A stretch of DNA of 46,939 nucleotides from contig JAFUKH010000097.1 of assembly GCA_017467845.1 (NCBI GenBank), positions 1-46,939 on the forward strand, read 5' to 3'. Made by a program: the position numbers and the translations under genes. The notes below the pieces were generated by a model, which was not told where the DNA came from, did not search any database, and saw only the letters and a list, made by a program, of their open reading frames with translations. This DNA comes from Lachnospiraceae bacterium. GTDB lineage: Bacteria; Bacillota; Clostridia; Lachnospirales; Lachnospiraceae. Below, in pieces: positions 1,328-17,157 of this stretch (within the stretch, counting starts at the first letter, position 1; every line of letters begins with the position of its first letter).

Positions 1328-1337
1328 GAGGTGCGGA

Positions 1338-1754: not shown

Positions 1755-1762
1755 ATAGTAAG

Positions 1763-1804
1763 ATGACTGATTATAGATAAAAACTATAACCAGTCATTTT
1801 TTTT
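1763..1804 (+). terminator. Rho-independent terminator after the LysR-Rrf2 operon
   Basis: Fourteen-base arms (1763-1776 and 1784-1797) with one mismatch and a seven-base loop are followed by a run of T. The inner part of the stem is also a LysR-type box, so this DNA may serve two purposes. Confidence 0.8.
1770..1790 (+). promoter_or_regulatory. Putative LysR box, site 1 (ATAG-N7-CTAT)
   Basis: ATTATAG-N7-CTATAAC contains the T-N11-A core typical of LysR sites. Exactly 20 bases separate it from the -35 at 1811, which puts its centre near -65. The same spacing is seen at 6157 and 11850. Confidence 0.6.
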
Positions 1805-1810
1805 ATGTAT

Positions 1811-1839
1811 TAGACAATATCCGTCAGTGGTAGTATGAT
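1811..1839 (+). promoter_or_regulatory. Promoter of the first amino-acid ABC transporter operon
   Basis: TAGACA-N17-TATGAT. The hexamers are imperfect, consistent with a need for an activator bound at 1770-1790. Confidence 0.65.
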
Positions 1840-1855
1840 TGCGTCATGAGGAAAA

Positions 1856-1872
1856 CCTACTAAATAAATAGG
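1856..1872 (+). promoter_or_regulatory. Putative Rrf2/IscR-type operator, site 2
   Basis: CCTACTAAATAAATAGG starts 16 bases after the -10 box, in the initial transcribed region and just before the ribosome site of the gene at 1898. Confidence 0.65.
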
Positions 1873-1897
1873 AAAACTCAGAAAGGAGTTAAAGATT

Positions 1898-2863
1898 ATG
1901 AAAAGAAAAACAATTAGTATTATAAGCGCAACATTGGTTACATTGGCACTCACAGCTTGCGGAAATAGTGCAGCACCTACAGATGCTTCCGTAGCAAAGC
2001 AGGAAGAAGTGCAGTATGGTAACACACAATATGAGGGATTACAATCTTACACAGAATATGCGGGAGTAGAAGCAGCTGCGGACAGCGAAAACGTTAAGAC
2101 GATTACTATTGCCTATGGTTATTCAGCATATCCCATTGCCTACACCACCAAGGATGGAGGTGTATCCGGTTATGATATCGAAATGCTGAAAGCAGTGGAT
2201 GCATTACTTCCGGATTATAAGTTTGAATTTGTACCTTCTGCAGGTGGTGATGATTTATTACTTGGTGTACAGAGTGGCAAGACAAATGGAGCTGTCCGAA
2301 ACTGGTTCCAGACAGAGGAAAGAAGACAGATATTCACTTTCCCGGAGAAGAATCTGGGTCTCAGTGTTACCGGACTTACTGTAAAGAAGGAGAATATTGA
2401 TACAATCTATGATTTTGCAACGGTTTCCGAAGCCGGCGGACATTTGGTTCCGGTAGATCCGGGCGATGGACATTACACCGTACTTAAGAAATGGTGCGAG
2501 GCAAATCCGGATAAAGCGTGGGATTTTGAAACAGGTCAGTTAACCAATAGTGCAGATGCATATGCATGGGTAGCCGAGGGAAGATACGATGCTTACTTTA
2601 GTTTGGAAGTTGGCTTCAATGCCTTGGTTGTAGCAGAAGATGGTTCCGCACATCAATATGCGGATCAGTTAACCTGGACGCCTTGTGCAGCAATTCCTAC
2701 ATACGTTATTTTTAGTGCCAATGATAAAGATGTTGCAGATGCTTTTGACAGTGTCATTGATCAGGTATGGGACAGCGGCTATGCAAGTTATATTCAGGAA
2801 AATCTGTACGGCGTAGATTACATTTCATTATACGGAAGAGATGGACTTGGATTTTCACAGTAA
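1898..2863 (+). CDS. ABC transporter substrate-binding lipoprotein, SBP family 3
   Basis: A 321-residue exported lipoprotein. The N terminus is a lipoprotein signal peptide ending in a LTAC lipobox with Cys21; a low-complexity linker follows, and a family 3 (polar amino acid) binding fold occupies about residues 65-300 (ITIAYGYSAYPIAYTT, GYDIEMLKAVDALLPDY). It should capture an amino acid or small sulfur compound outside the membrane and deliver it to the two permeases that follow. GGAG lies before the ATG. Its promoter carries both recurring operator types of the sulfur island, which supports a sulfur substrate such as cystine, but the ligand cannot be read from sequence. Confidence 0.9.
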   Translation: MKRKTISIISATLVTLALTACGNSAAPTDASVAKQEEVQYGNTQYEGLQSYTEYAGVEAAADSENVKTITIAYGYSAYPIAYTTKDGGVSGYDIEMLKAVDALLPDYKFEFVPSAGGDDLLLGVQSGKTNGAVRNWFQTEERRQIFTFPEKNLGLSVTGLTVKKENIDTIYDFATVSEAGGHLVPVDPGDGHYTVLKKWCEANPDKAWDFETGQLTNSADAYAWVAEGRYDAYFSLEVGFNALVVAEDGSAHQYADQLTWTPCAAIPTYVIFSANDKDVADAFDSVIDQVWDSGYASYIQENLYGVDYISLYGRDGLGFSQ

Positions 2864-2881
2864 AGAATAGGTGGGATGGAT

Positions 2882-3565
2882 ATGAGCTTTAATGGAGCAG
2901 TTTTTCTTTCGAACTTAATAGAGATTTTATCCTGTCTGGGAACCACATTTCTGGTGATGGTAGCATCCTTGTTCTTCTCGCTTTTACTTGCCACCGTTAC
3001 CGTAATGGGGAATCTGGGGAAAAACAAAATTTTTCGCAGCATTGCAAGGGGATATATCACACTGATGCGTTGTGTGCCTCCAATCGTTCTGTTGTTCGTG
3101 GTATATTACGGAGCACCCCATCTGGTGAAAGGCGCATTTGGAGTAGATATCAATCAGCTGGATGCCATCTATTTTGCCATATTCGCCTTAAGTTTGCTCC
3201 ATGGAGCCAGTATCTCAGAACTGATGAGGGGGGCTTATGAATCCGTTGAGAAGGGACAGAGAGAAGCTGCAGTCAGTATCGGATTATCATCCTTTCAGGC
3301 ATTTTACAGAATCATTTTTCCGCAGGCACTGGTAACCGCTTTGCCAACTCTGGGAAATACCATAGTAGGCCTCTTGAAGGACGGAGCCCTTGCCTATTCC
3401 ATCGGTGTTGTAGATATCACCGGGCAGGCCAGTTACTTGATATCCATGAATCTGGGAGGATATGTGCTGGAGACATATCTGGCACTTGCACTGATTTACT
3501 GGATATTATCCCTGGTTGTTCAGAAGAGCTTTGGATTTTTAGAAACAAGATTAAAGAAAGGATAG
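2882..3565 (+). CDS. Amino-acid ABC transporter permease (HisM/GlnP family)
   Basis: A membrane protein of about 227 residues with several hydrophobic segments and the cytoplasmic EAA loop that docks the ATPase (ESVEKGQREAAVSIGL). It pairs with the next gene as the second half of the membrane channel. I prefer the ATG at 2882, six bases after AGGTGGG; an ATG at 2876 abuts that ribosome site and would add two residues. Substrate class is inferred from the neighbouring family 3 binding protein. Confidence 0.92.
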   Translation: MSFNGAVFLSNLIEILSCLGTTFLVMVASLFFSLLLATVTVMGNLGKNKIFRSIARGYITLMRCVPPIVLLFVVYYGAPHLVKGAFGVDINQLDAIYFAIFALSLLHGASISELMRGAYESVEKGQREAAVSIGLSSFQAFYRIIFPQALVTALPTLGNTIVGLLKDGALAYSIGVVDITGQASYLISMNLGGYVLETYLALALIYWILSLVVQKSFGFLETRLKKG

Positions 3566-3575
3566 GTGAGAGGTT

Positions 3576-4280
3576 ATGACATGGAATGTGCCTTTTATGT
3601 ATGAGACATTTTTGAATACATGGAAAGCGGTACCCACTACGCTAAAGCTTACATTTATCCCATTTCTGATCAGTGTACCATTTGCTTTTCTTTTGGCAAT
3701 GGCCCAGATAAAGAAAGTAAGATTCTGGAGCAGATTCGCTCAAGGATATGTATCCTTTGTCAGAGGAATACCGGTAGTAGTATTAGTACTCTTATTTTAC
3801 AATACCCTGCCGGGACAGCTTGCAGCGATTTTCAAGTTCTTTGGTAGCAGCTTTAATGTATACAGGCAGGTGCCGGGAATCACCTATGCGTACTTTATTT
3901 TTTCCCTTACTGCCATAGCAGCCTTGACGGAAATCTTTCGAGCTGCGTTATCAGCAGTGGATAAGGGGCAGCTGGAAGCGGCATATGCAATCGGATTAAA
4001 TGCGCCGCAGGCTTACGTAAGAATTATTTTTCCACAGGCAATCGCAGTGGCGTGGCCGAATCTGTGTAATCTACTGATTATGCTGGTAAAGAATACATCT
4101 CTGGCTTTTATGATGACGGTAAAGGATATTACACAGACCGCCAAGCTGGGAGCAGCACTTAACTACTGTTATGCAGAGGCTTACACCGTGATTTTAATAA
4201 TTTATGTTATTATTTGTCTTATTCTGGAACAGATATTCAGAAGGACAGAGCGTTATTTAAACAGACATTTAGTGAAATAA
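3576..4280 (+). CDS. Amino-acid ABC transporter permease (HisM/GlnP family)
   Basis: A 234-residue polytopic protein with the EAA loop (SAVDKGQLEAAYAIGL) and the characteristic RIIFPQAI motif. It follows the previous permease after ten bases and makes the heterodimeric channel of the first transporter. The start is an ATG behind AGGTGAGAGG. The next gene is not the ATPase, as would be usual, but a methyltransferase-like protein. Confidence 0.92.
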   Translation: MTWNVPFMYETFLNTWKAVPTTLKLTFIPFLISVPFAFLLAMAQIKKVRFWSRFAQGYVSFVRGIPVVVLVLLFYNTLPGQLAAIFKFFGSSFNVYRQVPGITYAYFIFSLTAIAALTEIFRAALSAVDKGQLEAAYAIGLNAPQAYVRIIFPQAIAVAWPNLCNLLIMLVKNTSLAFMMTVKDITQTAKLGAALNYCYAEAYTVILIIYVIICLILEQIFRRTERYLNRHLVK

Positions 4281-4311
4281 AAAGATTGAATTTAAAAGGA
4301 GATTAGAGATT

Positions 4312-5304
4312 ATGAGCACAAGAAGAGAATTAGTATTAAAGGCATTTCACAATGAGAAAACAGAGAGAGTACCGGTTGGATTTTGGTTCCACTTCCTTGA
4401 AGGAGACGAGTTTAATGTAGGTCTTAAGAATCCGGAGCTTCTGCAGAAGAATCTTGCAGGACATAAAAAATTTGCAGAGGACTTTGATCCTGATTTTGTA
4501 AAGATTATGACAGATGGTTTCTTTTTCCTTCCATTTGATTTCTCTGCTATCAATACTGTAGAGGATTTGAAAAATTTAAAACCGATCACGGGGGACCATC
4601 CGTTCTTTGCAAAAAATGTGGAGCTGGTACAGGGTGTGCGCAAGATTTTCGGAGATGACAGATTATTATTTTTCAATGTATTTTCACCATTTAATCATCT
4701 TCTGTTTGGACTTGGAAATGGTTTTACCGGTTTACCGAAGCTTGTTTCCTTCCTGGAGCAGGATGCGTCCGCAGTTGCAGCAGCACTTAATACTATTGCA
4801 GAGAGTATCACAGAGCTAATCGGAGAGGTTGTAAAACCGGGGCTGGCAGATGGTATTTATCTCAGCGTCAATAATCCGAACCGTAAGATTCCTGCTCAGA
4901 TTTACAGTACATATATTGCACCAAGTGAAAGAAAGATTTTAGAGGCTGCAAATAAGCTGGCACAGGATAATATTCTTCACATCTGCGGATATGCGGGCAA
5001 TAAGAATATCCTTTCCGTATACAGAGACTATCCGGTAAGCGTAGTGAACTGGGCTGTTCATGCAGAGGATTTGGGCTTTAAGGACGGTAAAGAGTACTTC
5101 GGCGGCAAGGCTGTTATCGGTGGTTTTGACAATGTAAAAGAAGGACTCTTATATTCCGGAACCAAGGAAGAAATTGAGAAGTATGTGGAAGAGCTGCTTG
5201 CAGATGCAGGAAAAGAGGGCGTTATCATCGGCGCAGATTGCACGGTTCCAAGTGATATCGCTATCGAGAGACTGAAATGGGTAAGAGATAAAGCAGCTAA
5301 GTAG
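4312..5304 (+). CDS. Uroporphyrinogen-decarboxylase superfamily protein, MtaA-like zinc methyltransferase candidate
   Basis: A 330-residue TIM-barrel protein of the UroD superfamily (opening [27 protein letters not shown]). It has the zinc-ligand pattern of corrinoid-dependent methyl:thiol methyltransferases: His223-x-Cys225 in HICGYAG and Cys310 in GADCTVPSD. In MtaA/MtbA-type enzymes this H-x-C...C set holds the zinc that activates a thiol. True HemE decarboxylases lack it and no other heme genes are nearby. It sits between the permease and ATPase genes of one transporter, which suggests it acts on the imported compound, perhaps moving a methyl group to or from a thiol or thioether. No corrinoid protein is encoded in the window. 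The reaction is inference. Confidence 0.8.
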
Positions 5305-5327
5305 AGATTAAGAAGCGAGGTGGAAAT

Positions 5328-6080
5328 ATGCTGACAATCAGGGATGTAAGAAAGTCTTTTCAGGAAAATGAAGTATTAAAGGGAGTTTCCATAGAAGTTG
5401 AAAAAGGAGATGTAGTGGTTATTTTGGGACCCAGTGGCTCAGGTAAAACAACATTGCTCCGCAGTATTAATTTCCTGGAAAGAGCAGACAGTGGAACTTT
5501 GGATTGGGAAGATATCCATCTGGATTTAAAGCATGCGTCCAGAAAGGATGTTGCGCTGATTCGCAAAAAGACAGCTTTTGTATTTCAAAATTATAATCTA
5601 TTCAAGAATAAGACCGCCCTTGAGAACGTAATGGAAGGACTTACCGTTGCAAGAAAGGTTCCGAAAAAGGAAGCGGAAAAGATTGCAAAAGAAGCTCTTG
5701 ATAAAGTTGGACTGTCTGAGCGGTATGATTACTATCCCAGTCAGCTTTCCGGTGGACAGCAGCAGCGAGTGGGAATTGCCCGGGCGGTAGCTGTAAATCC
5801 GGACATCATCCTCTTTGATGAACCAACCTCCGCATTAGACCCGGAACTAGTGGGAGAGGTTCTTAATGTAATTAAGACTCTTGCAAAGGAAGGCACTACA
5901 ATGATTGTGGTGACCCATGAGATAAAATTTGCACAGGAAGTAGCAAATAAAGTGGTTTTCATGGATGGAGGATTTGTGGTTGAGGAAGGTTCGGCAAATG
6001 AGATTTTCAACCATCCCAAGGAAGAACGTACGCAGCAGTTTTTACGCCGCATTTTGCCGGATTATGATTATGCAATATAA
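5328..6080 (+). CDS. Amino-acid ABC transporter ATP-binding protein (GlnQ family)
   Basis: A 250-residue ATPase with a Walker A motif [10 protein letters not shown]-loop FQNYNLF, signature [14 protein letters not shown], Walker [13 protein letters not shown] and the switch histidine in VVTHE. It powers the transporter encoded from 1898. It is last in the operon, following the methyltransferase-like gene by 23 bases and preceding a strong terminator. Confidence 0.95.
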
Positions 6081-6091
6081 CATTTGATTTT

Positions 6092-6142
6092 TATCCCCTT
6101 ATTTCCAGTAATTACAATATTCTGGAGATAAGGGGATATTTT
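6092..6142 (+). terminator. Rho-independent terminator of the first transporter operon
   Basis: Sixteen-base arms (6093-6108 and 6122-6137), interrupted by one mismatch and rich in C/G at the base, close a 13-base loop and are followed by ATTTTATT. Confidence 0.85.
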
Positions 6143-6156
6143 ATTCTTTCCTTTTG

Positions 6157-6177
6157 AATATAGTTAAAAGCTATAAC
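6157..6177 (+). promoter_or_regulatory. Putative LysR box, site 2 (ATAG-N7-CTAT)
   Basis: AATATAG-N7-CTATAAC, again exactly 20 bases upstream of a -35 element (6198). The right half is identical to sites 1 and 3. Confidence 0.62.
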
Positions 6178-6197
6178 AGGCTATAGGGTTTATGTAA

Positions 6198-6226
6198 TTG
6201 ACTTTTAGATACTGCGGGCATAAAAT
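6198..6226 (+). promoter_or_regulatory. Promoter of the second amino-acid ABC transporter operon
   Basis: TTGACT-N17-TAAAAT, good hexamers with ideal spacing, flanked by the LysR-type box upstream and the Rrf2-type operator downstream. Confidence 0.8.
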
Positions 6227-6240
6227 ACAGTAGAAATAAT

Positions 6241-6257
6241 CCTACTAAGTTGATAGG
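6241..6257 (+). promoter_or_regulatory. Putative Rrf2/IscR-type operator, site 3
   Basis: CCTACTAAGTTGATAGG, 14 bases after the -10 box; one of the closest matches to the shared consensus. Confidence 0.68.
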
Positions 6258-6286
6258 AAAAGTATAAACCGAAAGGATGAGTGGGA

Positions 6287-6946
6287 ATGGATATAGGGTT
6301 TATAGTCGAATATATTCCGCTTTATGTGGAAGCTGCCAAGCTGACACTGGGCATCGGACTTATCGGTATTGCACTTTCCCTGATTGTTGGACTACTGATT
6401 GCTTTTATTCAATATTTTAAAATACCGATTTTGAGGCAGATGGCGACAGGATATATTGAATTGTCGCGAAATACGCCACTTTTGGTTCAGCTGTTTTTTC
6501 TTTATTTTGGATTACCGAAAGTCGGCATCCGCATCAGTTCTGAAGGATGTGCAATTATTGGACTTTGCTTTCTGGGAGGCAGTTACATGGCGGAGGCCTT
6601 TCGCAGTGGTATGGAATCCGTTGAGAAGGGGCAGGAAGAATCGGCTTTTGCTTTGGGATTTAGGAAAAGTCAGGTAGTAAGATATGTAATCTTACCACAG
6701 GCATTATCCGTTTCTATTCCTGCGTTATGTGCCAATATGATTTTCCTGATTAAAGAGACCTCTGTTTTTAGTGTAGTTGCATTAGCAGATCTGATGTATG
6801 TTGCGAAGGATCTGATTGGGCTCTATTACAAAACAGATGAAGCACTACTAATGTTGGTCATCGCCTATTTGATTATACTTCTGCCGATTTCGATTGTGGC
6901 AGCAATCTTGGAAAGGAGGATTCGTTATGCAGGATTTGGGAATTAG
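6287..6946 (+). CDS. Amino-acid ABC transporter permease
   Basis: A polytopic membrane protein of about 219 residues with the EAA loop (SGMESVEKGQEESAFALGF) and VILPQALS. It is the first gene of the second transporter operon and overlaps the next permease by 20 bases, typical of translationally coupled halves of one channel. The ATG at 6287 is preferred, with GAAAGGATGAG upstream; a GTG at 6281 would add two residues. Confidence 0.92.
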   Translation: MDIGFIVEYIPLYVEAAKLTLGIGLIGIALSLIVGLLIAFIQYFKIPILRQMATGYIELSRNTPLLVQLFFLYFGLPKVGIRISSEGCAIIGLCFLGGSYMAEAFRSGMESVEKGQEESAFALGFRKSQVVRYVILPQALSVSIPALCANMIFLIKETSVFSVVALADLMYVAKDLIGLYYKTDEALLMLVIAYLIILLPISIVAAILERRIRYAGFGN

Positions 6947-7607
6947 GGTTTTGTTTTTGGGAAATAATTTCGCCAGACTTCTGCAGGGACTTTGGATAAC
7001 GATTCGCATCTCATTGATAGCGGTTGCTCTTTCCATTGTATTTGGTGTTTTGTTAGGAATACTGATGACAGTAAAGAATCCTGTTATAAAGGCTATGACC
7101 AAGATATATTTGGAATTTATACGAATTATGCCACAGCTTGTACTTCTGTTTCTGGTATTCTTTGGACTGACAAAGTCCTATGGAATTAATCTTTCCGGAG
7201 AAACCAGTGCAATCATTGTATTTACGCTCTGGGGAACAGCAGAGATGGGAGATCTTGTGAGAGGTGCTTTAATATCCATACCCAAGCATCAATATGAAAG
7301 CGGTGCAGCAATCGGACTTACCAAATGGCAGGTTTACCGCTATGTTATTATTCCGCAGATATTGACAAGACTTGTACCATTGGCAATCAACCTGACAACG
7401 CGAATGATTAAGACAACTTCGCTGGTGGCATTAATCGGCGTTGTTGAAGTGCTTAAGGTTGCACAGCAGATTATTGAGGCGAACAGATACACGGTTCCGG
7501 ATTCCGCGCTGTGGATATATGGAACCATCTTCTTCTTATACTTCTTTGCATGCTGGCCTATTTCACTGGTAGCAAAAAGATTAGAGAAGAAATGGAAAAC
7601 AACGTAA
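6927..7607 (+). CDS. Amino-acid ABC transporter permease
   Basis: A polytopic protein of about 226 residues, the second channel subunit, with the EAA-type loop (LISIPKHQYESGAAIGL) and YVIIPQIL. The start is the ATG after GGAAAGGAGG, which lies inside the end of the preceding permease; a longer in-frame start further upstream lacks a ribosome site. Confidence 0.92.
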   Translation: MQDLGIRVLFLGNNFARLLQGLWITIRISLIAVALSIVFGVLLGILMTVKNPVIKAMTKIYLEFIRIMPQLVLLFLVFFGLTKSYGINLSGETSAIIVFTLWGTAEMGDLVRGALISIPKHQYESGAAIGLTKWQVYRYVIIPQILTRLVPLAINLTTRMIKTTSLVALIGVVEVLKVAQQIIEANRYTVPDSALWIYGTIFFLYFFACWPISLVAKRLEKKWKTT

Positions 7608-7641
7608 ATAAAGAAGTTCTGATAAAAATGAGGTGAGTCAT

Positions 7642-8406
7642 ATGGCGGAGCAACAAGTCATATTGGAAGCAAGAAATATTACGAAAGATTACGGCGGGGG
7701 ACGAGTATTAGATGGTGTTTCCCTGCAGGTTCATAAGGGCGAGGTTATCGTCCTGATTGGTCCTTCCGGTTGTGGAAAGAGTACATTTCTTAGATGTATG
7801 AATGGATTGGAACAAATTCAGTCCGGACAAATTTTATTAGATGGAGAGGTCATAACGGAAGGAAAGACCGATTGGACGAAGGTAAGACAGAAAATCGGTA
7901 TGGTGTTCCAAAGCTATGAATTATTTCCACATATGAGTGTAATAGACAATCTCGTTTTAGGACCCGTCAAGGTACAGGGGCGAGATAAGAAGGAAGTTAC
8001 GAAGGAAGCAGAAAAGCTTCTGGAGAGAGTGGGGCTTCTGGATAAAAAGGATGCTTTTCCGAGACAATTGTCCGGAGGACAAAAGCAGCGTGTTGCCATT
8101 GTCAGAGCACTGATTCTAAAACCGGAGATACTGCTCTTTGATGAAGTAACTGCAGCGCTTGATCCCGAGATGGTGAGAGAGGTTTTAGATGTAATTCTGG
8201 AGCTTGCGGCTGATGGATATACAATGTTAATCGTAACACATGAGATGCAATTTGCAAAAGCAGTTGCAGATAAAATCGTATTTATCGATGGTGGGAAAGT
8301 CGTGGAAAGCGGCATACCGGAGAAATTTTTTACCCAGCCAGAAACCGATCGTGCAAGACGGTTTTTGAATACATTTATTTATGCTAAAGGAGGAGAAAAA
8401 GCATGA
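7642..8406 (+). CDS. Amino-acid ABC transporter ATP-binding protein (GlnQ family)
   Basis: A 254-residue ATPase with Walker A GPSGCGKST, Q-loop FQSYELF, signature LSGGQKQRVAIVRA, and Walker B ILLFDEVTAALD, where the usual DEPTSALD proline is valine. The switch histidine is present (VTHEM). The ATG at 7642 follows GAGGTG with six bases between; a GTG nine bases earlier is less likely. The stop overlaps the start of the fused binding protein at 8403 by four bases, so translation of the two is coupled. Confidence 0.94.
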   Translation: MAEQQVILEARNITKDYGGGRVLDGVSLQVHKGEVIVLIGPSGCGKSTFLRCMNGLEQIQSGQILLDGEVITEGKTDWTKVRQKIGMVFQSYELFPHMSVIDNLVLGPVKVQGRDKKEVTKEAEKLLERVGLLDKKDAFPRQLSGGQKQRVAIVRALILKPEILLFDEVTAALDPEMVREVLDVILELAADGYTMLIVTHEMQFAKAVADKIVFIDGGKVVESGIPEKFFTQPETDRARRFLNTFIYAKGGEKA

Positions 8407-10070
8407 AAAAATTATTATCGTTTCTGTTAACATTTGTTTTAACGTTTGGAGTGCTTACGGGCTGTGGCGGCACAGATGACGCTTCCAATACACAGGCAGT
8501 AACAGAAGGAACTACAGAAGTAGCAGGAGAGGATGTTGTATATCGTACTCTGGATGAAATCAAGGAGAGCGGAACCGTTAAGATTGGTGTCTTCAGTGAC
8601 AAGAATCCGTTTGGTTACGTAGATGAAAACGGTGAGTATCAGGGATATGATGTATACTTTGGTAATCGTATCGCTCAGGATCTTGGTGTAGCAGTAGAGT
8701 ATGTTTCTACAGATGCCGCAAACCGTGTGGAATATCTTAAGAGTGGTAAGGTAGATATTATCCTTGCAAACTTCACAGTGACCGCAGAGAGAGCAGAGTC
8801 CGTTGATTTTGCACTTCCATATATGAAGGTGGCACTTGGTGTTGTTTCTCCGGATGCAGCACTTATCACATCACCGGAGCAGTTAAACGGCAAGAAACTC
8901 ATTGTTACCAAGGGTACCACTGCCGAAACATTTTTCACAGAGAACTATCCGGAAGTTGAGCTTGTAAAGTTTGACCAGTATACAGAAGCATACAATGCTT
9001 TATTAGATGGTCGTGGAGATGCATTCTCTACAGATAATACCGAAGTATTAGCCTGGGCTTTATTAAATGAAGGCTTCAGCGTTGGTATTGAGTCCATCGG
9101 AAACTTAGATACCATTGCACCGGCAGTATCTAAGGGAAATGAGACCTTGTTAAATTGGATTAATGATGAAATCGTTGCGTTAGCAGAGGAACAGTTCTTC
9201 CATGCTGATTACAAGGCAACCTTGGAGCCGGTATATGGCTCAGCAGTTGATATTGACAGCTTAGTAGTAGAGGGCGGCGTTATCGAAGAGGCAGCTTCTG
9301 ATGAAGCAGTAGCTAATGATGCAGCACCGGCAGAGGTCAAGGGAACCATCACTGTAGCAGCAAGTGCAACCCCTCATGCAGAGATTTTAGAGCAGGCAAA
9401 GGCTCTTCTTGCACTGGAAGGTTGGGAGCTTGAAGTAACCGTATTTGATGATTATGTTCAGCCTAACTTAGTAGTAGAAGGCGGCGACCTTGATGCCAAT
9501 TATTTCCAGCATATTCCTTACCTTAATAACTTCAATGCAGAGCAGGGTACTCATCTTGTAAATGCAGGTGGTATCCACTATGAGCCATTTGGAATTTATC
9601 CGGGTACCAAGAGCTCCCTGGATGAGCTGGCTGAGGGCGATACCATTGCAGTTCCTAATGATACTACAAATGAGGCAAGAGCTTTACTTTTATTACAGGC
9701 CAATGGTGTAATCACCTTAAAGGAAGGTGCAGGTCTTGAAGCAACTATTAATGATATTGCAGAAAATCCTAAGAACATTGAGATTTTGGAGCTTGAGGCT
9801 GCGCAGGTAGCCAGAGTAAAGGATGAGGTTGCTTTTGTTGTATTAAATGGTAATTATGCACTTCAGGCAGGCTTCTCTGTAGCACAGGATTCTATCGCGT
9901 ATGAGACAGCAGATTCTGAAGCAGCTCAGACATATGTAAATGTAATCGCAGTTAAGGAAGGAAATGAGAACAGCGAAGCAATTCAGGCGTTAGTAAATGT
10001 ATTAAAGTCTGATGAGATTACACAGTACATCAACGACACCTATGATGGAGCAGTAATTCCATTCAAATAA
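8403..10070 (+). CDS. Fused double substrate-binding lipoprotein: SBP family 3 plus NlpA/MetQ
   Basis: A 555-residue lipoprotein holding two complete binding proteins of unrelated families. A signal peptide ends in lipobox LTGC (Cys21). Residues about 45-290 are a polar-amino-acid family 3 domain (TVKIGVFSDKNPFGYV, SGKVDIILANFTVTAERAESVDFALPY). An acidic, Ala-rich linker spans about 290-313. Residues 314-555 are an NlpA/MetQ methionine-binding domain (GTITVAASATPHAEIL, DDYVQPNLVVEGGDLDANYFQH, YVNVIAVKEGNE). The NlpA part has no lipobox of its own, so one lipid anchor serves both. It lies between a GlnQ-type transporter and MetNI, and neither has another binding protein nearby, so one polypeptide may feed two transporters. 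The frame is open throughout with uniform codon use. Confidence 0.93.
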   Translation: MKKLLSFLLTFVLTFGVLTGCGGTDDASNTQAVTEGTTEVAGEDVVYRTLDEIKESGTVKIGVFSDKNPFGYVDENGEYQGYDVYFGNRIAQDLGVAVEYVSTDAANRVEYLKSGKVDIILANFTVTAERAESVDFALPYMKVALGVVSPDAALITSPEQLNGKKLIVTKGTTAETFFTENYPEVELVKFDQYTEAYNALLDGRGDAFSTDNTEVLAWALLNEGFSVGIESIGNLDTIAPAVSKGNETLLNWINDEIVALAEEQFFHADYKATLEPVYGSAVDIDSLVVEGGVIEEAASDEAVANDAAPAEVKGTITVAASATPHAEILEQAKALLALEGWELEVTVFDDYVQPNLVVEGGDLDANYFQHIPYLNNFNAEQGTHLVNAGGIHYEPFGIYPGTKSSLDELAEGDTIAVPNDTTNEARALLLLQANGVITLKEGAGLEATINDIAENPKNIEILELEAAQVARVKDEVAFVVLNGNYALQAGFSVAQDSIAYETADSEAAQTYVNVIAVKEGNENSEAIQALVNVLKSDEITQYINDTYDGAVIPFK

Positions 10071-10095
10071 ATACAGGTTGTAAAAGAAAGATATC

Positions 10096-10141
10096 AGAGA
10101 TTGTCATATGGGAGAACACTTATGTGACAATCTCTTTTTTT
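10096..10141 (+). terminator. Rho-independent terminator between the fused binding protein and metN
   Basis: Eleven-base arms (10096-10106 and 10125-10135) are followed by seven T. No promoter is evident between it and metN, so metNI probably depends on read-through or a promoter I cannot see. Confidence 0.88.
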
Positions 10142-10178
10142 GAAGAAGTGTTCAGTATCAGCTAAGGAGGAGAGAAGC

Positions 10179-11189
10179 ATGGAACCAATTATTCGCGTGG
10201 AGAATATCAGTAAGACTTTTCAGGCAAATAATGGACAGGTGGAGGCCGTTAAAAATATCAGCTTTTCTATTGAAAAAGGCGATATTTTTGGAATCATCGG
10301 ACTATCCGGCGCCGGAAAAAGTACGCTGGTGCGATGTTTAAATTTACTTGAGAAACCAAATGAAGGAAATATCTATATTGACGGAAAGAATCTGATGGAG
10401 CTTTCGAATAGGGAGCTGCGCAGGGAACGTCAGGATATTGGTATGATTTTTCAGCATTTTAATCTATTAATGCAGAGAAATGTGCTTGACAATATCTGTT
10501 TCCCATTAGAGATAGCGGGAGTTAGCAGAAGAGAAGCAAGGAAGCGTGCACTGGAGCTTCTGGAGATTGTTGGTCTCAGTGAAAAGGCAAAGGCTTATCC
10601 GGCACAGCTCTCGGGAGGACAGAAGCAGCGTGTGGCAATTGCCAGGGTCCTGGCGAATAATCCGAAAATCCTGCTTTGCGATGAGGCAACCAGTGCTTTG
10701 GATCCGCAGACCACCAAGTCCATACTGAAGCTTCTGAAGGAAATCAATCAAAAATATGACATCACCATCGTTGTTATTACACATGAGATGGCGGTGATTC
10801 AGGAAATCTGTTCCAAGGTGGCAGTGCTGGATCATGGAAGTCTGGTGGAGACAGGGACCGTGGAAGAGCTTTTCAGGGCACCAAAGACGGAAGAAGCAAA
10901 GAAGCTGATTCTCAACGAGTTTGCCCATATCAAGGAGATGAAAAGCGAGCGCATGATCCGTGTAACATTCAGCGGAAAGTCAGCATTTGAGCCGCTGATT
11001 GGGAACGTGATACTGGAATATAAGACCCCTTTGAATATCCTTTATGCAAATACGAAGACAATTAATGGAAATGCAGAAGGGGAGATGATTCTCCAGCTTC
11101 CGGAAACGAAGGAAATCGCGGAGAGCATGATTGCATATTTTAAGGAGAAGGAACTTGGTGTTGAGGAGGTGGATGATTATGTTCGATGA
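10179..11189 (+). CDS. metN: Methionine ABC transporter ATP-binding protein MetN
   Basis: A 336-residue ATPase with Walker A GLSGAGKST, Q-loop FQHFNLL, signature LSGGQKQRVAIARV, Walker B ILLCDEATSALD and VITHEM. The extra C-terminal region (about 260-336, starting RMIRVTFSGKSAFEP) is the NIL regulatory domain that binds methionine and inhibits transport in characterised MetN proteins. The ATG at 10179 is chosen because AAGGAGGAG lies just upstream; a TTG start 39 bases earlier lies inside the terminator. It overlaps metI by 11 bases. Its binding protein is presumably the NlpA half of the preceding fusion. Confidence 0.95.
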   Translation: MEPIIRVENISKTFQANNGQVEAVKNISFSIEKGDIFGIIGLSGAGKSTLVRCLNLLEKPNEGNIYIDGKNLMELSNRELRRERQDIGMIFQHFNLLMQRNVLDNICFPLEIAGVSRREARKRALELLEIVGLSEKAKAYPAQLSGGQKQRVAIARVLANNPKILLCDEATSALDPQTTKSILKLLKEINQKYDITIVVITHEMAVIQEICSKVAVLDHGSLVETGTVEELFRAPKTEEAKKLILNEFAHIKEMKSERMIRVTFSGKSAFEPLIGNVILEYKTPLNILYANTKTINGNAEGEMILQLPETKEIAESMIAYFKEKELGVEEVDDYVR

Positions 11190-11841
11190 AACAATAATAA
11201 ATATGCTGATTGAAGGAACCTGGGCGACCCTCTATATGACATTGGTATCTACCTTGTTTGGTTATATTGTAGGTCTTCCATTGGGAATCGTCCTTACGAT
11301 TACGGATAAGGAAGGCATAAAACCTAATGCTGTTGTTTACAAGATACTTGATTTTATTGTTAATCTGACAAGAAGCATCCCTTTCTTAATCTTACTTATC
11401 TTAGTGATGCCTCTGACGAAGCTTATTGTGGGAAAAAGCTATGGCTCTACAGCAACTATTGTGCCTTTGACCATAGCAGCAGCGCCATTTATCGGACGTA
11501 TGGTGGAGTCATCCTTAAAGGAAGTGGACAAGGGTGTCATTGAAGCTGCCCAAAGTATGGGAGCAGGTACCTTTTCTGTTATCCGGAAAGTGCTCCTGGC
11601 AGAGGCACGGACTTCCCTTCTGGTTGGCGTGACGATTGCAGTGGGAACCATTCTGGGTTATTCTGCAATGGCAGGTGCCGTCGGCGGTGGCGGACTTGGT
11701 GATATCGCCATTCGTTACGGATATCATCGCTATGAAACCGACATAATGATTGTTACAATTGTTATTTTAGTAGTATTGGTCCAGATTCTGCAGGGACTTG
11801 GTATGATGCTGTCTAAGAAGCTGGACCGCAGACATACATAA
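11179..11841 (+). CDS. metI: Methionine ABC transporter permease MetI
   Basis: A 220-residue permease that forms the homodimeric methionine channel. It has the family hallmark segments (TLYMTLVSTLFGYIVGLPLG, SIPFLILLILVMPLT) and the EAA loop (SSLKEVDKGVIEAAQSMG). The ATG at 11179 follows TTGAGGAGG and lies inside the end of metN, implying translational coupling. The length is normal. Confidence 0.95.
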   Translation: MFDETIINMLIEGTWATLYMTLVSTLFGYIVGLPLGIVLTITDKEGIKPNAVVYKILDFIVNLTRSIPFLILLILVMPLTKLIVGKSYGSTATIVPLTIAAAPFIGRMVESSLKEVDKGVIEAAQSMGAGTFSVIRKVLLAEARTSLLVGVTIAVGTILGYSAMAGAVGGGGLGDIAIRYGYHRYETDIMIVTIVILVVLVQILQGLGMMLSKKLDRRHT

Positions 11842-11849
11842 TCATAAGC

Positions 11850-11870
11850 GTTATAGCTTATTCCTATAAC
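11850..11870 (+). promoter_or_regulatory. Putative LysR box, site 3 (perfect palindrome)
   Basis: GTTATAG-N7-CTATAAC has perfect seven-base arms, the best example of this motif in the window. It ends 20 bases before the -35 candidate at 11891. Confidence 0.68.
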
Positions 11871-11890
11871 ACTCTAAAGGATATAGATAT

Positions 11891-11919
11891 TATACAAAAG
11901 GAATGAATCATGTTATCTT
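11891..11919 (+). promoter_or_regulatory. Candidate promoter of the trans-sulfuration operon
   Basis: TATACA-N17-TATCTT with an extended TG before the -10. The hexamers are weak, consistent with activation from the upstream box. I see no Rrf2-type operator here, unlike the other promoters of the island. Confidence 0.5.
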
Positions 11920-11985
11920 TATATCATAGTTTTCCGATATGGTTTATTTGAAAAATGACTGTGGATTGCGAAGGAGGAATATAAC

Positions 11986-13137
11986 ATGGAGTTAAGCATA
12001 GAAACACGATGTCAGCATCTGGCTGATGATAATAGTAAAAAGAACCATTATGGTTCCATCAGTTTTCCCATTTACCAGACTGCAACATTTGCTCATCCGG
12101 CAGTAGGAGAAAGCACCGGTTATGATTACAGTCGCTTGCAGAATCCTACAAGAGAGCATCTGGAAAAGGTAGTGGCATCTTTGGAAAAAGGAATTGACGC
12201 ACTTGGATTTTCCAGTGGAATGGCGGCTATAGCATCGCTTATGGAGATTTTCCGCCCGGGCGACCATTTGATTGTAGATGCGGATCTCTATGGCGGAAGT
12301 ATTCGTCTTTTCAACAATATCAGTGAAAAGAATGGGGTTGAATTTACCAGTGTAGATTGCCATAAGGAGGATGTGGAGGCGTTCATTACGGATAAGACCA
12401 AAGCAGTATTTATCGAAACACCTACTAATCCGATGATGAATGTAACAGATATTGCTGAGTTGGCAAAGGTTACCAAAAAGCACAATATTCTGTTGATTGT
12501 GGATAATACCTTCTTATCACCTTATTTTCAGAATCCTCTGGAGCTTGGAGCAGATGTTGTAGTACATAGCGGAACAAAGTTCCTGGGTGGACACAACGAT
12601 ACTATTGCGGGCTTCCTTGTGACGAATGACGAGGCAATAAGTGAGAAGCTTCGCTTTATTATAAAGACTACGGGAGCTGGGCTTGCACCCTTTGACAGTT
12701 GGTTGATTTTAAGAGGAATTAAGACCCTTGCGGTACGTATGGAGAGGGCACAGGAAAATGCAATCAAGCTGGCACATTGGCTGGAAGAACAGGAGCTTGT
12801 GAAAAAAGTAATTTATCCGGGCCTTCCTTCCCATCCCGGCCACGAGATTATGAAAAAACAGAGCCGAGGCTTTGGAGCAATGCTTACATTTGAGGTGACT
12901 TCAAAAGAAGTCGCGTTAAGCATCCTTAAAAACGTAAAAGTGGTTTCGTTTGCGGAGAGTCTTGGCGGAACGGAAACATTGATTACCTATCCGACCACTC
13001 AGACTCATGCGGATGTTCCAAAGGATATTCAGCTCAAAAACGGCATAACGGATTGTGTCCTGCGTATGTCTGTAGGAATTGAACATATTGATGACATTAT
13101 TGCAGATTTAGAGAACGCATTTTCAAACGCAAAGTAA
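11986..13137 (+). CDS. Trans-sulfuration PLP enzyme (cystathionine gamma-synthase/lyase family)
   Basis: A 383-residue Cys/Met-metabolism PLP enzyme. The PLP lysine is Lys198 in HSGTKFLGGHND; other family segments are YDYSRLQNPTREHLE, FSSGMAA and the VDNTFLSPYFQNPLELGAD block. Family members make or break cystathionine or condense sulfide with acylated homoserine, and sequence alone does not settle which. GGAGG precedes the ATG, and patB follows after 13 bases. Together the pair could convert homocysteine and cysteine through cystathionine, or release sulfide from cysteine. It has its own LysR-boxed promoter. Confidence 0.93.
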   Translation: MELSIETRCQHLADDNSKKNHYGSISFPIYQTATFAHPAVGESTGYDYSRLQNPTREHLEKVVASLEKGIDALGFSSGMAAIASLMEIFRPGDHLIVDADLYGGSIRLFNNISEKNGVEFTSVDCHKEDVEAFITDKTKAVFIETPTNPMMNVTDIAELAKVTKKHNILLIVDNTFLSPYFQNPLELGADVVVHSGTKFLGGHNDTIAGFLVTNDEAISEKLRFIIKTTGAGLAPFDSWLILRGIKTLAVRMERAQENAIKLAHWLEEQELVKKVIYPGLPSHPGHEIMKKQSRGFGAMLTFEVTSKEVALSILKNVKVVSFAESLGGTETLITYPTTQTHADVPKDIQLKNGITDCVLRMSVGIEHIDDIIADLENAFSNAK

Positions 13138-13150
13138 GGAGGAAATCAAC

Positions 13151-14332
13151 ATGCCGGAAAGAAATCTTGATTTTGATACAGTGATAGATCGGAAAAATAC
13201 AAACTGCTTAAAATATGATTTTGCCGTCAGACGGGGAAAGCCGGCAGATGTTCTTCCGCTTTGGGTTGCAGATATGGATTTTCGTATTTCGTCCTATATT
13301 CAGGAAGCTCTGGTGAAGCAGGCTACACATGGTATCTATGGGTACAGCGATGCCAAAGAAGAGTATTTTGAAGCAATTAGCAGCTGGATGAAAAAGCATC
13401 ATGACTGGGAAGTAGAAGAAAAATGGCTGGTGAAGACACCGGGAATCGTTTTTGCACTGGCTATGGCGGTTAAGGCCTATACAGAAAAAGGGGATGCGGT
13501 TTTGATTTCCCAGCCGGTTTATTATCCGTTTACCGAAGTGATTAAGGATAATGAAAGAAGGGTAGTGGACAGTACGCTGGTTTTAGGTGAAGATGGGAAG
13601 TATCGTATTGACTTTGAGGATTTTGAAGAGAAAATCATTCGAGAAAATGTGAAATTATTCTTCCTGTGTAATCCTCACAATCCTGTGGGAAGGGTGTGGA
13701 CCAGAGAAGAACTGATTGCGCTGGGAGATATCTGTAAAAAGCATCAGGTGATTGTGGTAAGTGATGAAATTCATGGGGATCTAATCTTTAATGGAGAGCA
13801 TCAGGTATTCCCTAATGTTAAGGAGGAATTCAAGGAGTTCTCCATTGTTTGTACGGCGCCTAGTAAGACATTTAATATTGCGGGACTGCAGGTTTCGAAT
13901 ATTTTTATCCCTAATAAAGAGCTTCGCGGGAAGTTCAAAAAACAGATTGACGCTGCAGGGTACAGTCAGTTAAATGCAGCCGGTCTTGCAGCATGTGAGG
14001 CAGCATACAAGTATGGCGAAGAATGGTATACAGCAATGATTTCTTATGTGAAGAAGAATATTGCGTATGCGAAAGCTTATTTTGAGCAGAACATTCCACA
14101 AGTGAAGATGTATGAGCCGGAAGGAACTTATCTTGTGTGGGTTGATTTCAGAGGTCTTTCCTTGTCCGGTGCAGAGCTGGAGAATTTGATTATTAATAAA
14201 GCGGGGCTCTGGCTGGACAGCGGAGCTATCTTTGGACCTGCCGGGGAAGGCTTCCAGCGCATTAATGTGGCTTGTCCACGGGCAACGCTTGCAGAAGCTC
14301 TGGAAAGGTTGAAAGCAGCCATACTGCAATAG
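13151..14332 (+). CDS. patB: PatB/MalY-type PLP C-S lyase (cystathionine beta-lyase family)
   Basis: A 393-residue fold-type I aminotransferase-like enzyme of the MalY/PatB group. The PLP lysine is Lys239 in APSKTFNIAGLQ; LPLWVADMDF near the N terminus and the VVSDEIHGDL block are typical. Characterised members cleave cystathionine or cysteine conjugates to a thiol, pyruvate and ammonia. It follows the trans-sulfuration enzyme after 13 bases behind AAGGAGG. Its last codons and stop form part of the LysR-type box for cysK. The symbol is given by family; aminotransferase activity is not excluded. Confidence 0.88.
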   Translation: MPERNLDFDTVIDRKNTNCLKYDFAVRRGKPADVLPLWVADMDFRISSYIQEALVKQATHGIYGYSDAKEEYFEAISSWMKKHHDWEVEEKWLVKTPGIVFALAMAVKAYTEKGDAVLISQPVYYPFTEVIKDNERRVVDSTLVLGEDGKYRIDFEDFEEKIIRENVKLFFLCNPHNPVGRVWTREELIALGDICKKHQVIVVSDEIHGDLIFNGEHQVFPNVKEEFKEFSIVCTAPSKTFNIAGLQVSNIFIPNKELRGKFKKQIDAAGYSQLNAAGLAACEAAYKYGEEWYTAMISYVKKNIAYAKAYFEQNIPQVKMYEPEGTYLVWVDFRGLSLSGAELENLIINKAGLWLDSGAIFGPAGEGFQRINVACPRATLAEALERLKAAILQ

Positions 14333-14346
14333 GAATTACCTATAGC
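14326..14346 (+). promoter_or_regulatory. Putative LysR box, site 4, overlapping the patB stop codon
   Basis: GCAATAG-N7-CTATAGC matches the island's LysR-type box and includes the TAG stop of patB. The gap to the cysK -35 is 31 bases, 11 more than at the other three sites, which keeps nearly the same face of the helix. Confidence 0.5.
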
Positions 14347-14361
14347 AAGTGAAAGTAATAA

Positions 14362-14381
14362 TCAATAGCGTAAGCTATTGA
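14362..14381 (+). promoter_or_regulatory. Palindrome overlapping the cysK -35
   Basis: TCAATAG-N6-CTATTGA is a perfect seven-base inverted repeat that ends inside the -35 hexamer. With a six-base spacer it differs from the N7 boxes; it could be a second, activation-type contact site for the same LysR protein. Confidence 0.45.
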
Positions 14382-14406
14382 CATTGGTCGGAATGACATG
14401 TAAAAT
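14378..14406 (+). promoter_or_regulatory. Sigma-A promoter of cysK
   Basis: TTGACA-N17-TAAAAT: a perfect -35, one mismatch in the -10 and ideal spacing. Palindromes lie upstream and an Rrf2-type operator lies downstream. Confidence 0.85.
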
Positions 14407-14428
14407 CAATAACATAAAACATATTAAT

Positions 14429-14445
14429 CCTATCGAGTTAGTGGG
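14429..14445 (+). promoter_or_regulatory. Putative Rrf2/IscR-type operator, site 4
   Basis: CCTATCGAGTTAGTGGG, 22 bases after the cysK -10 box and upstream of the cysK ribosome site. Confidence 0.6.
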
Positions 14446-14474
14446 GAATTAAAAAGAGTGCGTGGAGGTAGAAT

Positions 14475-15413
14475 ATGAGCCAGATCACAGAAAGTGCATT
14501 AGAATTGATTGGTGGAACACCATTATTGAAACTGAACAGATATGCAAAGAAGGCAGGAGCACAGGATGTGACCATTCTTGCCAAGTTGGAGTATCTGAAT
14601 CCGGCAGGTTCCGTAAAGGACAGAATTGCAAAGGCAATGATTGAAGATGCAGAACAGAAAGGTATCCTTAAAGAAGGTGCAACCATCATTGAGCCCACAT
14701 CAGGCAATACAGGTATTGGTCTTGCAGCAGTTGCTGCGGCAAAGGGATACAGAGCGATTCTCACATTGCCGGAGACAATGAGTGTGGAAAGAAGAAATCT
14801 TTTAAAGGCATATGGTGCTGAATTAGTCCTTACAGAAGGTGCAAAGGGTATGAAGGGTGCCATCGCCAAGGCAGAGGAATTGAAAGAATCCATTCAGGGT
14901 GCTGTTATTCTTGGTCAGTTCGTTAATCCTGCCAATCCTGCAGTACATAAAGTAACTACAGGTCCTGAAATTTGGGAACAGACGGATGGAAAGGTTGATA
15001 TCTTTGTGGCAGGTGTAGGCACCGGCGGAACCATTACCGGTGTAGGAGAATATTTGAAGGAGAAAAATCCTAATGTAAAGGTTGTAGCAGTTGAGCCGGC
15101 AGGAAGTCCTGTCTTATCAACCGGAACACCCGGAGCGCATAAGATTCAGGGTATTGGAGCAGGCTTTGTACCTGACGTATTAAATACAGGTATTTATGAT
15201 GAAATCATCACCATCGAGAATGAAGATGCATTTGCTGAGGGTAGAGCTTTTGCTGTAAGCGAAGGAATCCTTGTAGGAATCTCTTCCGGAGCAGCATTAA
15301 AGGCCGCAGCTATTTTGGCAAGCAGACCTGAGAATAAGGGGAAAACCATCGTGGCTTTACTTCCTGATTCCGGTGACAGATATTTATCTACACCTTTATT
15401 TGGCAATAATTAA
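14475..15413 (+). CDS. cysK: Cysteine synthase A (O-acetylserine sulfhydrylase)
   Basis: A 312-residue PLP enzyme that makes cysteine from O-acetylserine and sulfide. Lys48 in [11 protein letters not shown] is the PLP lysine; [12 protein letters not shown] and the [10 protein letters not shown] phosphate-binding loop are intact. The length matches CysK rather than the longer cystathionine beta-synthases. The ATG follows TGGAGGTAGAAT. It is monocistronic, with its own promoter and a terminator directly after it. Both recurring operator types are present, making it the clearest anchor for a cysteine regulon. Confidence 0.96.
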
Positions 15414-15424
15414 TATGTGAGGAT

Positions 15425-15467
15425 ACCAGAGGTTTTGTTAAAAAAAGTGGCAAAATCTCTGGTTTTT
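15425..15467 (+). terminator. Rho-independent terminator of cysK
   Basis: A 13-bp stem (15425-15437 with 15451-15463, one G-U pair) runs into a five-T tract. Confidence 0.88.
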
Positions 15468-15498
15468 GTAAGTTAGCTGTATCTGGATGGAGTGAATA

Positions 15499-16626
15499 AT
15501 GGAGATTACAGTACAAGAATTGAAATTACTGGAAAAAGACAGTTATCAGATTATTGATATCCGAAGTGAAAACGAAGTCTCCCATGGTGTCATTCCGGGT
15601 GCTGTTCATTTGTCTGTGGATCATATAGAAAATAATCCGATGATTGATTTTGGAAAGAAGCTGGTTATATGCTGCACCAGAGGGAAATTTAGCGTGGAAG
15701 TAGCAGAGTTTCTTTCGGACAAGGGGTACGATGCAGTCAGCCTAGCCGGTGGATATGTGGCATGGCTGCTGGAGCAGTTTCAGGATAAGAAGGAAGAGGA
15801 AGTCAGCAAGAAGGTTGAAGAGAGCATCCGGAAGAAATTCCGAAAAAATATCTGGTGCCAGTTTACCAAAGCAATCAATCAGTATGAACTGGTGAAGGAA
15901 GGCGACTGCATAGCAGTATGCATATCCGGTGGAAAAGATTCCATGTTGATGGCCAAGTTGTTCCAGGAACTGAAGCTGCATAATAAGTTTCCATTTGATG
16001 TTAAATTTCTGGTGATGGATCCGGGATACAGTCCCGCAAATCGGAAGATTATTGAAGAAAACGCGGAGAAACTGAATATTCCGATTACCATCTATGAATC
16101 AGATATTTTTGATTCTGTTTATCATGTGGAGAAATCTCCCTGTTATTTGTGTGCGAGAATGAGGAGAGGGCATTTGTACAGTTATGCGAAGGAGATGGGC
16201 TGCAATAAAATTGCATTGGGACATCACTATGATGATGTGATTGAGACCATACTTATGGGAATGCTATATGGTGCACAAATTCAGACAATGATGCCAAAGC
16301 TTCACAGTACAAATTTTGAAGGCATGGAGCTGATTCGCCCGTTGTATTTGATTCGTGAAGATGATATTAAAGAATGGCGCGATTACAATGGGCTTCATTT
16401 TATACAGTGCGCCTGTAAATTTACCGATACCTGCACTACATGTAATAATGAGGAAACGCGTTCTAAGCGTGTGGAAATCAAAGAATTGATCAGTCACTTA
16501 AAAGAAACCAATCCTTTTGTGGAAGGGAATATTTTTAAGAGTGTGGAAAATGTCAATTTGGATACGGTGGTTGCGTATAAGCAAAATGGGGAAAAGCACC
16601 ATTTTCTGGATACGTATGATGTATAA
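15499..16626 (+). CDS. Rhodanese-TtcA fusion: sulfurtransferase domain plus PP-loop tRNA thiolase-like domain
   Basis: A 375-residue fusion. Residues 1-95 are a rhodanese-like domain with the active-site loop CCTRGKFS (Cys58/Cys59), able in principle to carry a persulfide. Residues about 110-375 belong to the TtcA/TilS PP-loop ATPases: SGGKDS at 143-148, Cys215-x2-Cys218 (CYLC) and a late cluster Cys304, Cys306, Cys312, Cys315. TtcA proper makes 2-thiocytidine in tRNA using an Fe-S cluster held by three cysteines. Fusion of donor and thiolase would allow direct sulfur handover. It lies between cysK and the IscR-IscS-IscU-MnmA genes, 15 bases before the Rrf2 gene. The exact tRNA or other acceptor is not known. 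Confidence 0.85.
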   Translation: MEITVQELKLLEKDSYQIIDIRSENEVSHGVIPGAVHLSVDHIENNPMIDFGKKLVICCTRGKFSVEVAEFLSDKGYDAVSLAGGYVAWLLEQFQDKKEEEVSKKVEESIRKKFRKNIWCQFTKAINQYELVKEGDCIAVCISGGKDSMLMAKLFQELKLHNKFPFDVKFLVMDPGYSPANRKIIEENAEKLNIPITIYESDIFDSVYHVEKSPCYLCARMRRGHLYSYAKEMGCNKIALGHHYDDVIETILMGMLYGAQIQTMMPKLHSTNFEGMELIRPLYLIREDDIKEWRDYNGLHFIQCACKFTDTCTTCNNEETRSKRVEIKELISHLKETNPFVEGNIFKSVENVNLDTVVAYKQNGEKHHFLDTYDV

Positions 16627-16641
16627 CGAAAGGGGGAGCGT

Positions 16642-17055: not shown

Positions 17056-17105
17056 AGGGAAGATGCAGTTCTGATAAGTGTGAAATCAGAGCTGTTAATT
17101 AATAA

Positions 17106-17111
17106 TATAAT
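17106..17111 (+). promoter_or_regulatory. -10 element of the iscS operon promoter
   Basis: A perfect TATAAT lies upstream of iscS. No good -35 is visible at 16-18 bases, so an activator or an upstream AT-rich tract may be needed. Confidence 0.55.
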
Positions 17112-17113
17112 AT

Positions 17114-17130
17114 CATACTAAACGAGTAGG
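17114..17130 (+). promoter_or_regulatory. Putative Rrf2/IscR-type operator, site 5
   Basis: CATACTAAACGAGTAGG starts only two bases after the -10 box of the iscS operon. The left half deviates at one base from the other four sites. Confidence 0.6.
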
Positions 17131-17157
17131 ATAAGTATGAAAAGGAGGTTAGATGAT

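Follow-up and report, generated by a model that had tools for sequence, protein, structure and literature searches.

We found that a single gene of a Lachnospiraceae bacterium, at 8403..10070 on the forward strand of the window (the whole 46,939-nucleotide stretch of DNA analysed), encodes a 555-residue lipoprotein in which a cysteine-receptor domain of the CjaA/NGO2014 type is fused to a MetQ/NlpA-type domain, and that this one lipid-anchored, two-headed receptor probably serves two ABC importers. In the mechanism we propose, the N half would bind L-cysteine or a close relative and dock on the importer encoded by P2a, P2b and A2, the C half would bind methionine and dock on MetNI, the linker would allow each half to open, close and dock independently, and the fusion would keep the two halves in a 1:1 ratio. 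Each domain comes from a well-known family; what appears to be new is their joining on one anchor beside two importers. Shared use by a cystine-type and a methionine-type transporter had been proposed in the first-pass annotation. Comparison among relatives supports shared use, because each half co-diverges with a different transporter, the fusion is commonly the sole receptor, some genomes carry permease sets without a receptor of their own, and a second MetQ occurs where metNI lies elsewhere; the word "cystine" has to be replaced by cysteine. For the question of whether sharing a receptor couples nutrient uptake, the fusion provides a natural test.

Two receptor domains on one lipid anchor

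The frame at 8403..10070 contains no internal stop. Its lipoprotein signal peptide (8403..8465; this and all features below on the forward strand unless stated) ends in the lipobox LTGC at residues 18-21, whose cysteine was present in 54 of 61 aligned fusions and fell in an alignment gap in the remaining 7; the 61 rows comprise the window, L170, and 59 of the 80 loci from a contig search in which the best 80 of 548 relatives were kept. The N half (residues 48-291; 8544..9275) has a cysteine-receptor fold, and the C half (residues 313-555; 9339..10067) has a MetQ fold. Between them lies an acidic, A/E-rich linker with a disordered core at residues 296-307 (9288..9323), where the pLDDT of an AlphaFold2 model (mean 81.7) dropped below 50. 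The earlier reading of one continuous frame, with a family 3 domain and an NlpA/MetQ domain behind one lipobox, was thus confirmed by the ORF, by Pfam and by the sequence.

The N half matched SBP_bac_3 at residues 59-264 with 99.1 bits against a cut-off of 26.4, which places it in family 3. Its nearest solved chains were the L-cysteine receptors 1xt8 (E 1.8e-81), which we take to be CjaA (Cj0982) of Campylobacter jejuni, and 2yjp (E 1.4e-79), with both of which it shares 54-56% identity and the same fold at 1.2-1.3 A, whereas the cystine receptor 2yln of N. gonorrhoeae was far away (E 1.1e-12). The annotated polar-amino-acid family 3 domain was therefore retained, and its cystine label was changed to cysteine-type. 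Nine chosen pocket positions were invariant in the 61 aligned fusions, except for Y72 (60/61). T125, R130, T172, T173 and D211, which form a Thr and an Arg five residues apart, an Asp and a Gly-Thr-Thr motif, were kept in all 61; these ligand positions were mapped from docked FliY, as given in an excerpt of PMC7170509, by motif and rough spacing rather than by structure.

The C half matched the NlpA family (Lipoprotein_9) at residues 316-553 with 280.5 bits against a cut-off of 27, and its nearest solved chain was 4ib2 at 77% identity. The methionine contact set given in an excerpt of PMC6739813, mapped onto the C half by motif spacing, corresponds to Y351, F368, H370, Y373, R426, N484 and N513. 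Six of these seven were present in all 61 aligned fusions, and F368 was kept in 54 and replaced by V or M in the other 7. Since the NCBIfam MetQ models fell below their cut-offs (NF008285, 182.5 of 374; TIGR00363, 173.2 of 228.85), the C half is filed solely as an NlpA-family (Pfam) domain, one that probably works like MetQ. Median dN/dS, from pairs with dS within 0.05-1.3, was 0.019-0.037 for the N half across three locus sets (13, 2 and 17 usable pairs) and 0.036-0.059 for the fused C half, loci without adjacent metNI included. Because its dN/dS exceeded that of stand-alone MetQ (median 0.028, 9 pairs) and, in each of the three sets, that of the N half, the fused C half may be somewhat relaxed. 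The protein consists of two complete substrate-binding domains behind one lipobox, joined by a flexible linker, and in each domain the ligand pocket is conserved and dN/dS is low.

The MetQ half has no lipobox or anchor of its own. The window's linker is free of cysteine, and among the 80 loci (best 80 of 548) the gap between the halves measured 0-46 residues (median 19) and held a cysteine in none. It is quite unlikely that cleavage in the linker turns the fusion, as a precursor, into a pair of ordinary receptors of which one stays anchored and the other is released. An acidic, variable and predicted disordered linker would suit such a cut, and a GNGE stretch near the linker end recurs in 33 of the 80 fusions (loci L040-L119; best 80 of 548), but this stretch is absent from the window and most loci and is perhaps just the beginning of the MetQ domain, and a freed MetQ half without an anchor would be expected to diffuse away from a Gram-positive cell.

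The same two-domain architecture was sought in relatives, and all 80 kept loci (best 80 of 548) proved to be in-frame fusions. The window's assembly is 85.8% complete in 105 contigs and most relatives are also metagenome-assembled, which would be compatible with an assembly or frameshift artefact; this explanation is effectively refuted by the open frame in 80/80 loci, including L083 (Lachnospiraceae bacterium G41), which carries no MAG label. A stop or frameshift concealed in the stretch from residue 290 to residue 313, which the first-pass annotation had named as one refuting result, is accordingly very unlikely.

Genes flanking the fusion

Upstream of the fusion lie the genes of a polar/cysteine-type amino acid ABC importer: permease 1 (P2a, 6281..6946), with BPD_transp_1 and HEQRo_perm_3TM over cut-off, permease 2 (P2b, 6894..7607, ATG start likely at 6927) and a GlnQ-like ATPase (A2, 7633..8406). 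Both P2a and P2b are separate ORFs, and neither forms an SBD-permease fusion of the GlnPQ type. Since the stop of A2 overlaps the start of the fusion (ATGA), the two genes are probably translationally coupled. Downstream lie a MetN-type ATPase with an NIL domain (10179..11189; the ORF is listed from 10140, with an ATG and a Shine-Dalgarno sequence at 10179) and the permease MetI (11131..11841, ATG likely at 11173). MetN scored 365.2 bits with TIGR02314, below the cut-off of 499.7, and 73.7 with NIL over a cut-off of 24, and MetI scored 227 bits with NF008049 over a cut-off of 212; the NIL-bearing ATPase together with MetI identifies a MetNI importer. As had been annotated, no other binding protein stands beside P2a-P2b-A2 and no other MetQ beside MetN and MetI. 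The SBP at 1898-2863 belongs with a separate ABC set (2876-6080).

A promoter-like TTGACT-17-TAAAAT site precedes P2a (6198..6226), identified as a consensus match only; 42 such sites were found in the region against 32.3 expected. Between the fusion and metN, a strong 17-bp hairpin followed by T6 (10096..10135) forms a possible terminator or processing site. The region contains 13 terminator-like sites (10.5 expected), and this one has the longest stem among those listed; the near relatives L041 and L043 have a similar hairpin after the fusion. Of 77 loci in which another gene follows, a strict hairpin-plus-T test was positive in just 15, among them the window, with gaps of about 20 bases or less being untestable and counted as misses; a general terminator after the fusion was on this basis rejected. 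In the window, partial termination at 10096-10135 may hold the receptor transcript above the metNI transcript. Riboswitch control was likewise discarded as a candidate, since the sole hit of an Rfam search over 1-18000 was to the cspA leader, below threshold and at the left edge, where a cold-shock protein gene (1-294, reverse strand) is clipped by the window end.

Several other genes were observed nearby. An Rrf2-family regulator (1287-1754) lies upstream of the transporter cluster, its best NCBIfam model being CymR at 140.8 bits, below the cut-off of 195. In the adjacent ABC operon, a URO-D family gene (4312-5304) separates permease from ATPase genes. Downstream, a run of sulfur-type genes (11986-16626) encodes a Cys/Met PLP enzyme, a PatB C-S lyase, a PALP enzyme that we read as cysteine-synthase-like, and a rhodanese and PP-loop protein.

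Correspondence between receptor halves and importers

All three modules, namely the fusion, MetNI and the P2a-P2b-A2 set (P2), were found together in 59 of the 80 loci (best 80 of 548), in the orders FUS-MetNI-P2 (40 loci), P2-FUS-MetNI as in the window (18) and MetNI-FUS-P2 (1). The order FUS-P2 without MetNI occurred in 12/80, FUS-MetNI with P2 not seen in 2/80 and with the contig ending in 3/80, and the other 4/80 were of other order or cut. To compare divergence, 82 loci were examined (window included), of which 55 had all seven genes and 51 remained after dereplication, MetN being represented by its first 255 residues. In these 51 loci, distances of the N half correlated with those of P2a (0.81), P2b (0.83) and A2 (0.61), and distances of the C half with those of MetN (0.60) and MetI (0.88), against 0.11 between the two halves and 0.19-0.38 for the cross terms. 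The pattern persisted in the 46 loci left without group B2 (L033/L170 and L114-L119), with 0.45 between the halves and cross terms of 0.42-0.62. Within group B1 alone (34 loci), all correlations were at least 0.54, and contrasts over random two-thirds subsets ranged from 0.14 to 0.63 on the C side and from -0.006 to 0.49 on the N side. Co-divergence of this kind can also arise, in part, from block replacement or exchange of the MetQ half together with metNI.

These data bear on the alternative that both heads feed one importer, the N half delivering cysteine and the C half methionine to P2a-P2b-A2, with MetNI incidental. Such an arrangement has a precedent in GlnPQ, in which two SBDs serve one translocator according to an excerpt of PMC8025302, and it would accommodate the 12/80 loci (best 80 of 548) that have only P2a-P2b-A2 beside the fusion and a MetQ half at low dN/dS. 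We nevertheless consider it unlikely, as the C half tracks MetN and MetI more than P2a, P2b and A2, the three modules stand together in 59 of the 80 loci, and MetN, MetI and the MetQ half are jointly divergent in group B2.

Service of both importers by the one receptor is further suggested by receptor counts. Stand-alone N-type receptors adjoined P2a-P2b-A2 in 20/20 hand-chosen loci (L149-L168), following the set in 18 and preceding it in 2. The N half was the sole match at E <= 1e-40 in 46/48 and 31/31 fusion genomes (overlapping sets), the former count resting on 48 of the 80 loci (best 80 of 548). The exceptions were G549, which has a second N-type receptor, and G551, whose second is itself in a 599-aa frame. 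The genome of the window has one N-half match at E <= 1e-40, which is this fusion, and one MetI at E <= 1e-20, which lies in this cluster. A separate metQ elsewhere in the genome that alone supports MetNI, the other refuting result named beforehand, did not appear: the one Lipoprotein_9 match at E <= 0.001 in that genome (85.8% complete) is again the fusion. As a separate observation, G551, the genome of L062, has MetQ-bearing frames of 599 and 576 aa, the length of a fusion, and one of 352 aa.

Among 70 fusion genomes, the fusion was the sole MetQ in 49. A second MetQ was present in 14/14 genomes in which metNI is not beside the fusion, against 7/56 in which it is (Fisher p 6e-10, kinship ignored). 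The 70 combine 48 genomes from the 80 loci (best 80 of 548) with 22 more, five seen under two handles being counted once; the genome of the window was excluded, as were G304 and G486, whose frames are truncated at contig ends, and a second MetQ match in G361 that fell short of the family cut-off was scored as absent. In 11 of 12 genomes without metNI beside the fusion, the sole MetI is close to the separate MetQ on one contig, and five of the seven genomes with a second MetQ although metNI adjoins the fusion have a second MetI. These counts and positions suggest that MetQ receptors broadly match MetNI in number and location. Against dual service, control for kinship removes the second-MetQ association, with 3 independent pairs on starred branches, 2.8 of them on average in the same direction (p 0.25), and in those 11 of 12 genomes the fusion retains its MetQ half, which is unneeded there as sole receptor.

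At loci without metNI beside the fusion, the median C-half dN/dS was 0.036 (13 usable pairs among 14 loci) even though MetNI has its own receptor there. The C half may accordingly act in trans as an additional receptor for MetNI, deliver to P2a-P2b-A2 or have some other role. That the MetQ half is instead a passenger kept by chance and no longer delivering methionine is very improbable. A separate MetQ wherever metNI is not adjacent, the unfused N-type receptors L139, L140 and L168, which the N tree places within or between groups of fusions, and the dN/dS of fused C halves above that of stand-alone MetQ all agree with such a passenger, but its pocket is conserved, its dN/dS is far below 1, it belongs to the sole MetQ of most of the 70 genomes, and in the window's genome the only MetQ stands beside the only MetI.

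In G331, G539, G541 and G542, P2a-P2b-A2 (L209-L212) lies on another contig than the fusion, which adjoins metNI, and tblastn with the window's receptors (E <= 1e-4) over 11-14 kb found no receptor beside these orphan sets. The fusion would have to serve P2a-P2b-A2 in trans in these four genomes.

Comparison with known receptors

The L-cysteine ABC receptors nearest to the N half, the C. jejuni cysteine-binding protein (1xt8) and NGO2014 (2yjp), are single receptors, whereas the chain described here continues into a MetQ-type domain. The C half shares the methionine contact set of MetQ in MetNIQ (4ib2, 4got, 6dzx) but differs in having no lipobox of its own, being anchored solely through another receptor domain. 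GlnPQ (6h30; Foldseek rank 31) likewise has two tandem receptor domains with a flexible linker, which work largely independently according to an excerpt of PMC8025302; its SBDs, as described there, are fused to the permease of one translocator, whereas the present fusion places two families on a lipid anchor beside two importers. AdcA, as described in an excerpt of PMC7858048, is also a Gram-positive lipoprotein with two ligand-binding domains and a short linker, but it serves one importer, AdcCB, needs its N domain alone for import, and has a ZinT-like second domain. No description of a receptor joining two unrelated families and serving two importers was found in the open-licence literature searched.

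Dual service of the two importers by the fusion might couple the two supplies, as the first-pass annotation suggested: fusion imposes 1:1 expression of the halves, but the independence of the tandem domains in GlnPQ speaks for caution. It is doubtful, though conceivable, that the receptor goes further and physically links the two importers, P2a-P2b-A2 and MetNI, in a single uptake site, where docking on either would shift the odds of docking on the other and cysteine and methionine intake would be balanced through a shared receptor pool. In genomes with the fusion, annotation that expects a separate receptor for every importer could wrongly report metQ or the cysteine receptor as absent.

Distribution and origin of the fusion

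The fusion is scattered through the Lachnospiraceae. NCBI assigns 67 of the 80 loci (best 80 of 548) to this family, 10 to no family and 3 to other clostridial family names. Full-length matches were present in at least 10 of 138 genus genomes, G103 additionally having both halves in one frame as two pieces, in at least 20 of 397 sampled family genomes, 2 of these matches being truncated near residue 505 where the contig ends, and in 3 of 391 class genomes; at most 10 candidates per genome were scored in the genus scan and 3 in the family scan, which makes the fusion counts lower bounds. One of the three class genomes, G717, is assigned to another family, and its coordinates agree with those of G567, the genome of L119. 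In the family scan, 165 more genomes matched at E <= 1e-60, with one half each among the matches listed, and 212 had no match at that threshold. A tblastn search of plasmids gave 0 records covering 80% of the fusion.

Unfused arrangements suggest how the gene could have arisen. In G087 (L169), P2a-P2b-A2-cjaA is followed by metQ-metN-metI as separate genes, with one gene between them that we read as hydrolase-like from its GDS motif, and in G339 (L161), P2a-P2b-A2-cjaA is followed by metN-metI-metQ, again unfused. If, in the order of G087, the gene that closes the first operon were joined to the one that opens the second, the order of the window would result. A triple fusion in G087, suggested by a printed frame length, proved wrong: cjaA, the short hydrolase-like gene and metQ are separate.

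A single origin without later change was rejected. One fused clade failed for the N half (p-AU 4e-86; 45 hand-picked rows, 29 of 98 fused and 16 of 25 unfused) and also for the C half (p 0.0023; 49 rows, 29 of 100 fused and 20 of 30 unfused), for which it failed again without group B2 (p 0.0006; 46 rows). One row labelled unfused on the N tree, L027, probably represents a fusion truncated where its contig ends. The joined state was apparently reached, or re-cut, more than once, the fusion having formed, been re-cut or been lost several times; non-monophyly could equally be produced by loss, domain swap, transfer or repeated fusion. In group B2, the N half falls inside the B group, whereas the MetQ half is very different (100* branch) and MetN and MetI have 50-54% identity to those of the window, so these sequences indicate that the MetQ-MetNI module was swapped or fused anew. 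A stand-alone N half, L139/L149 of G479 (68% complete), falls inside the window's fused clade, and neither MetQ nor MetI was found in this assembly. Further stand-alone N halves among the fused ones were L140 (G417) and L168 (G404), whose genomes have MetQ and MetNI elsewhere.

A recent event on the MetQ side was also noticed. A stand-alone MetQ at 4361-5089 of L173 (G114:C16:24000-33000), a locus with metNI absent from the 9 kb fetched, lies very close on the C tree to the fused C half of the same genome, which we read as a recent duplication or conversion.
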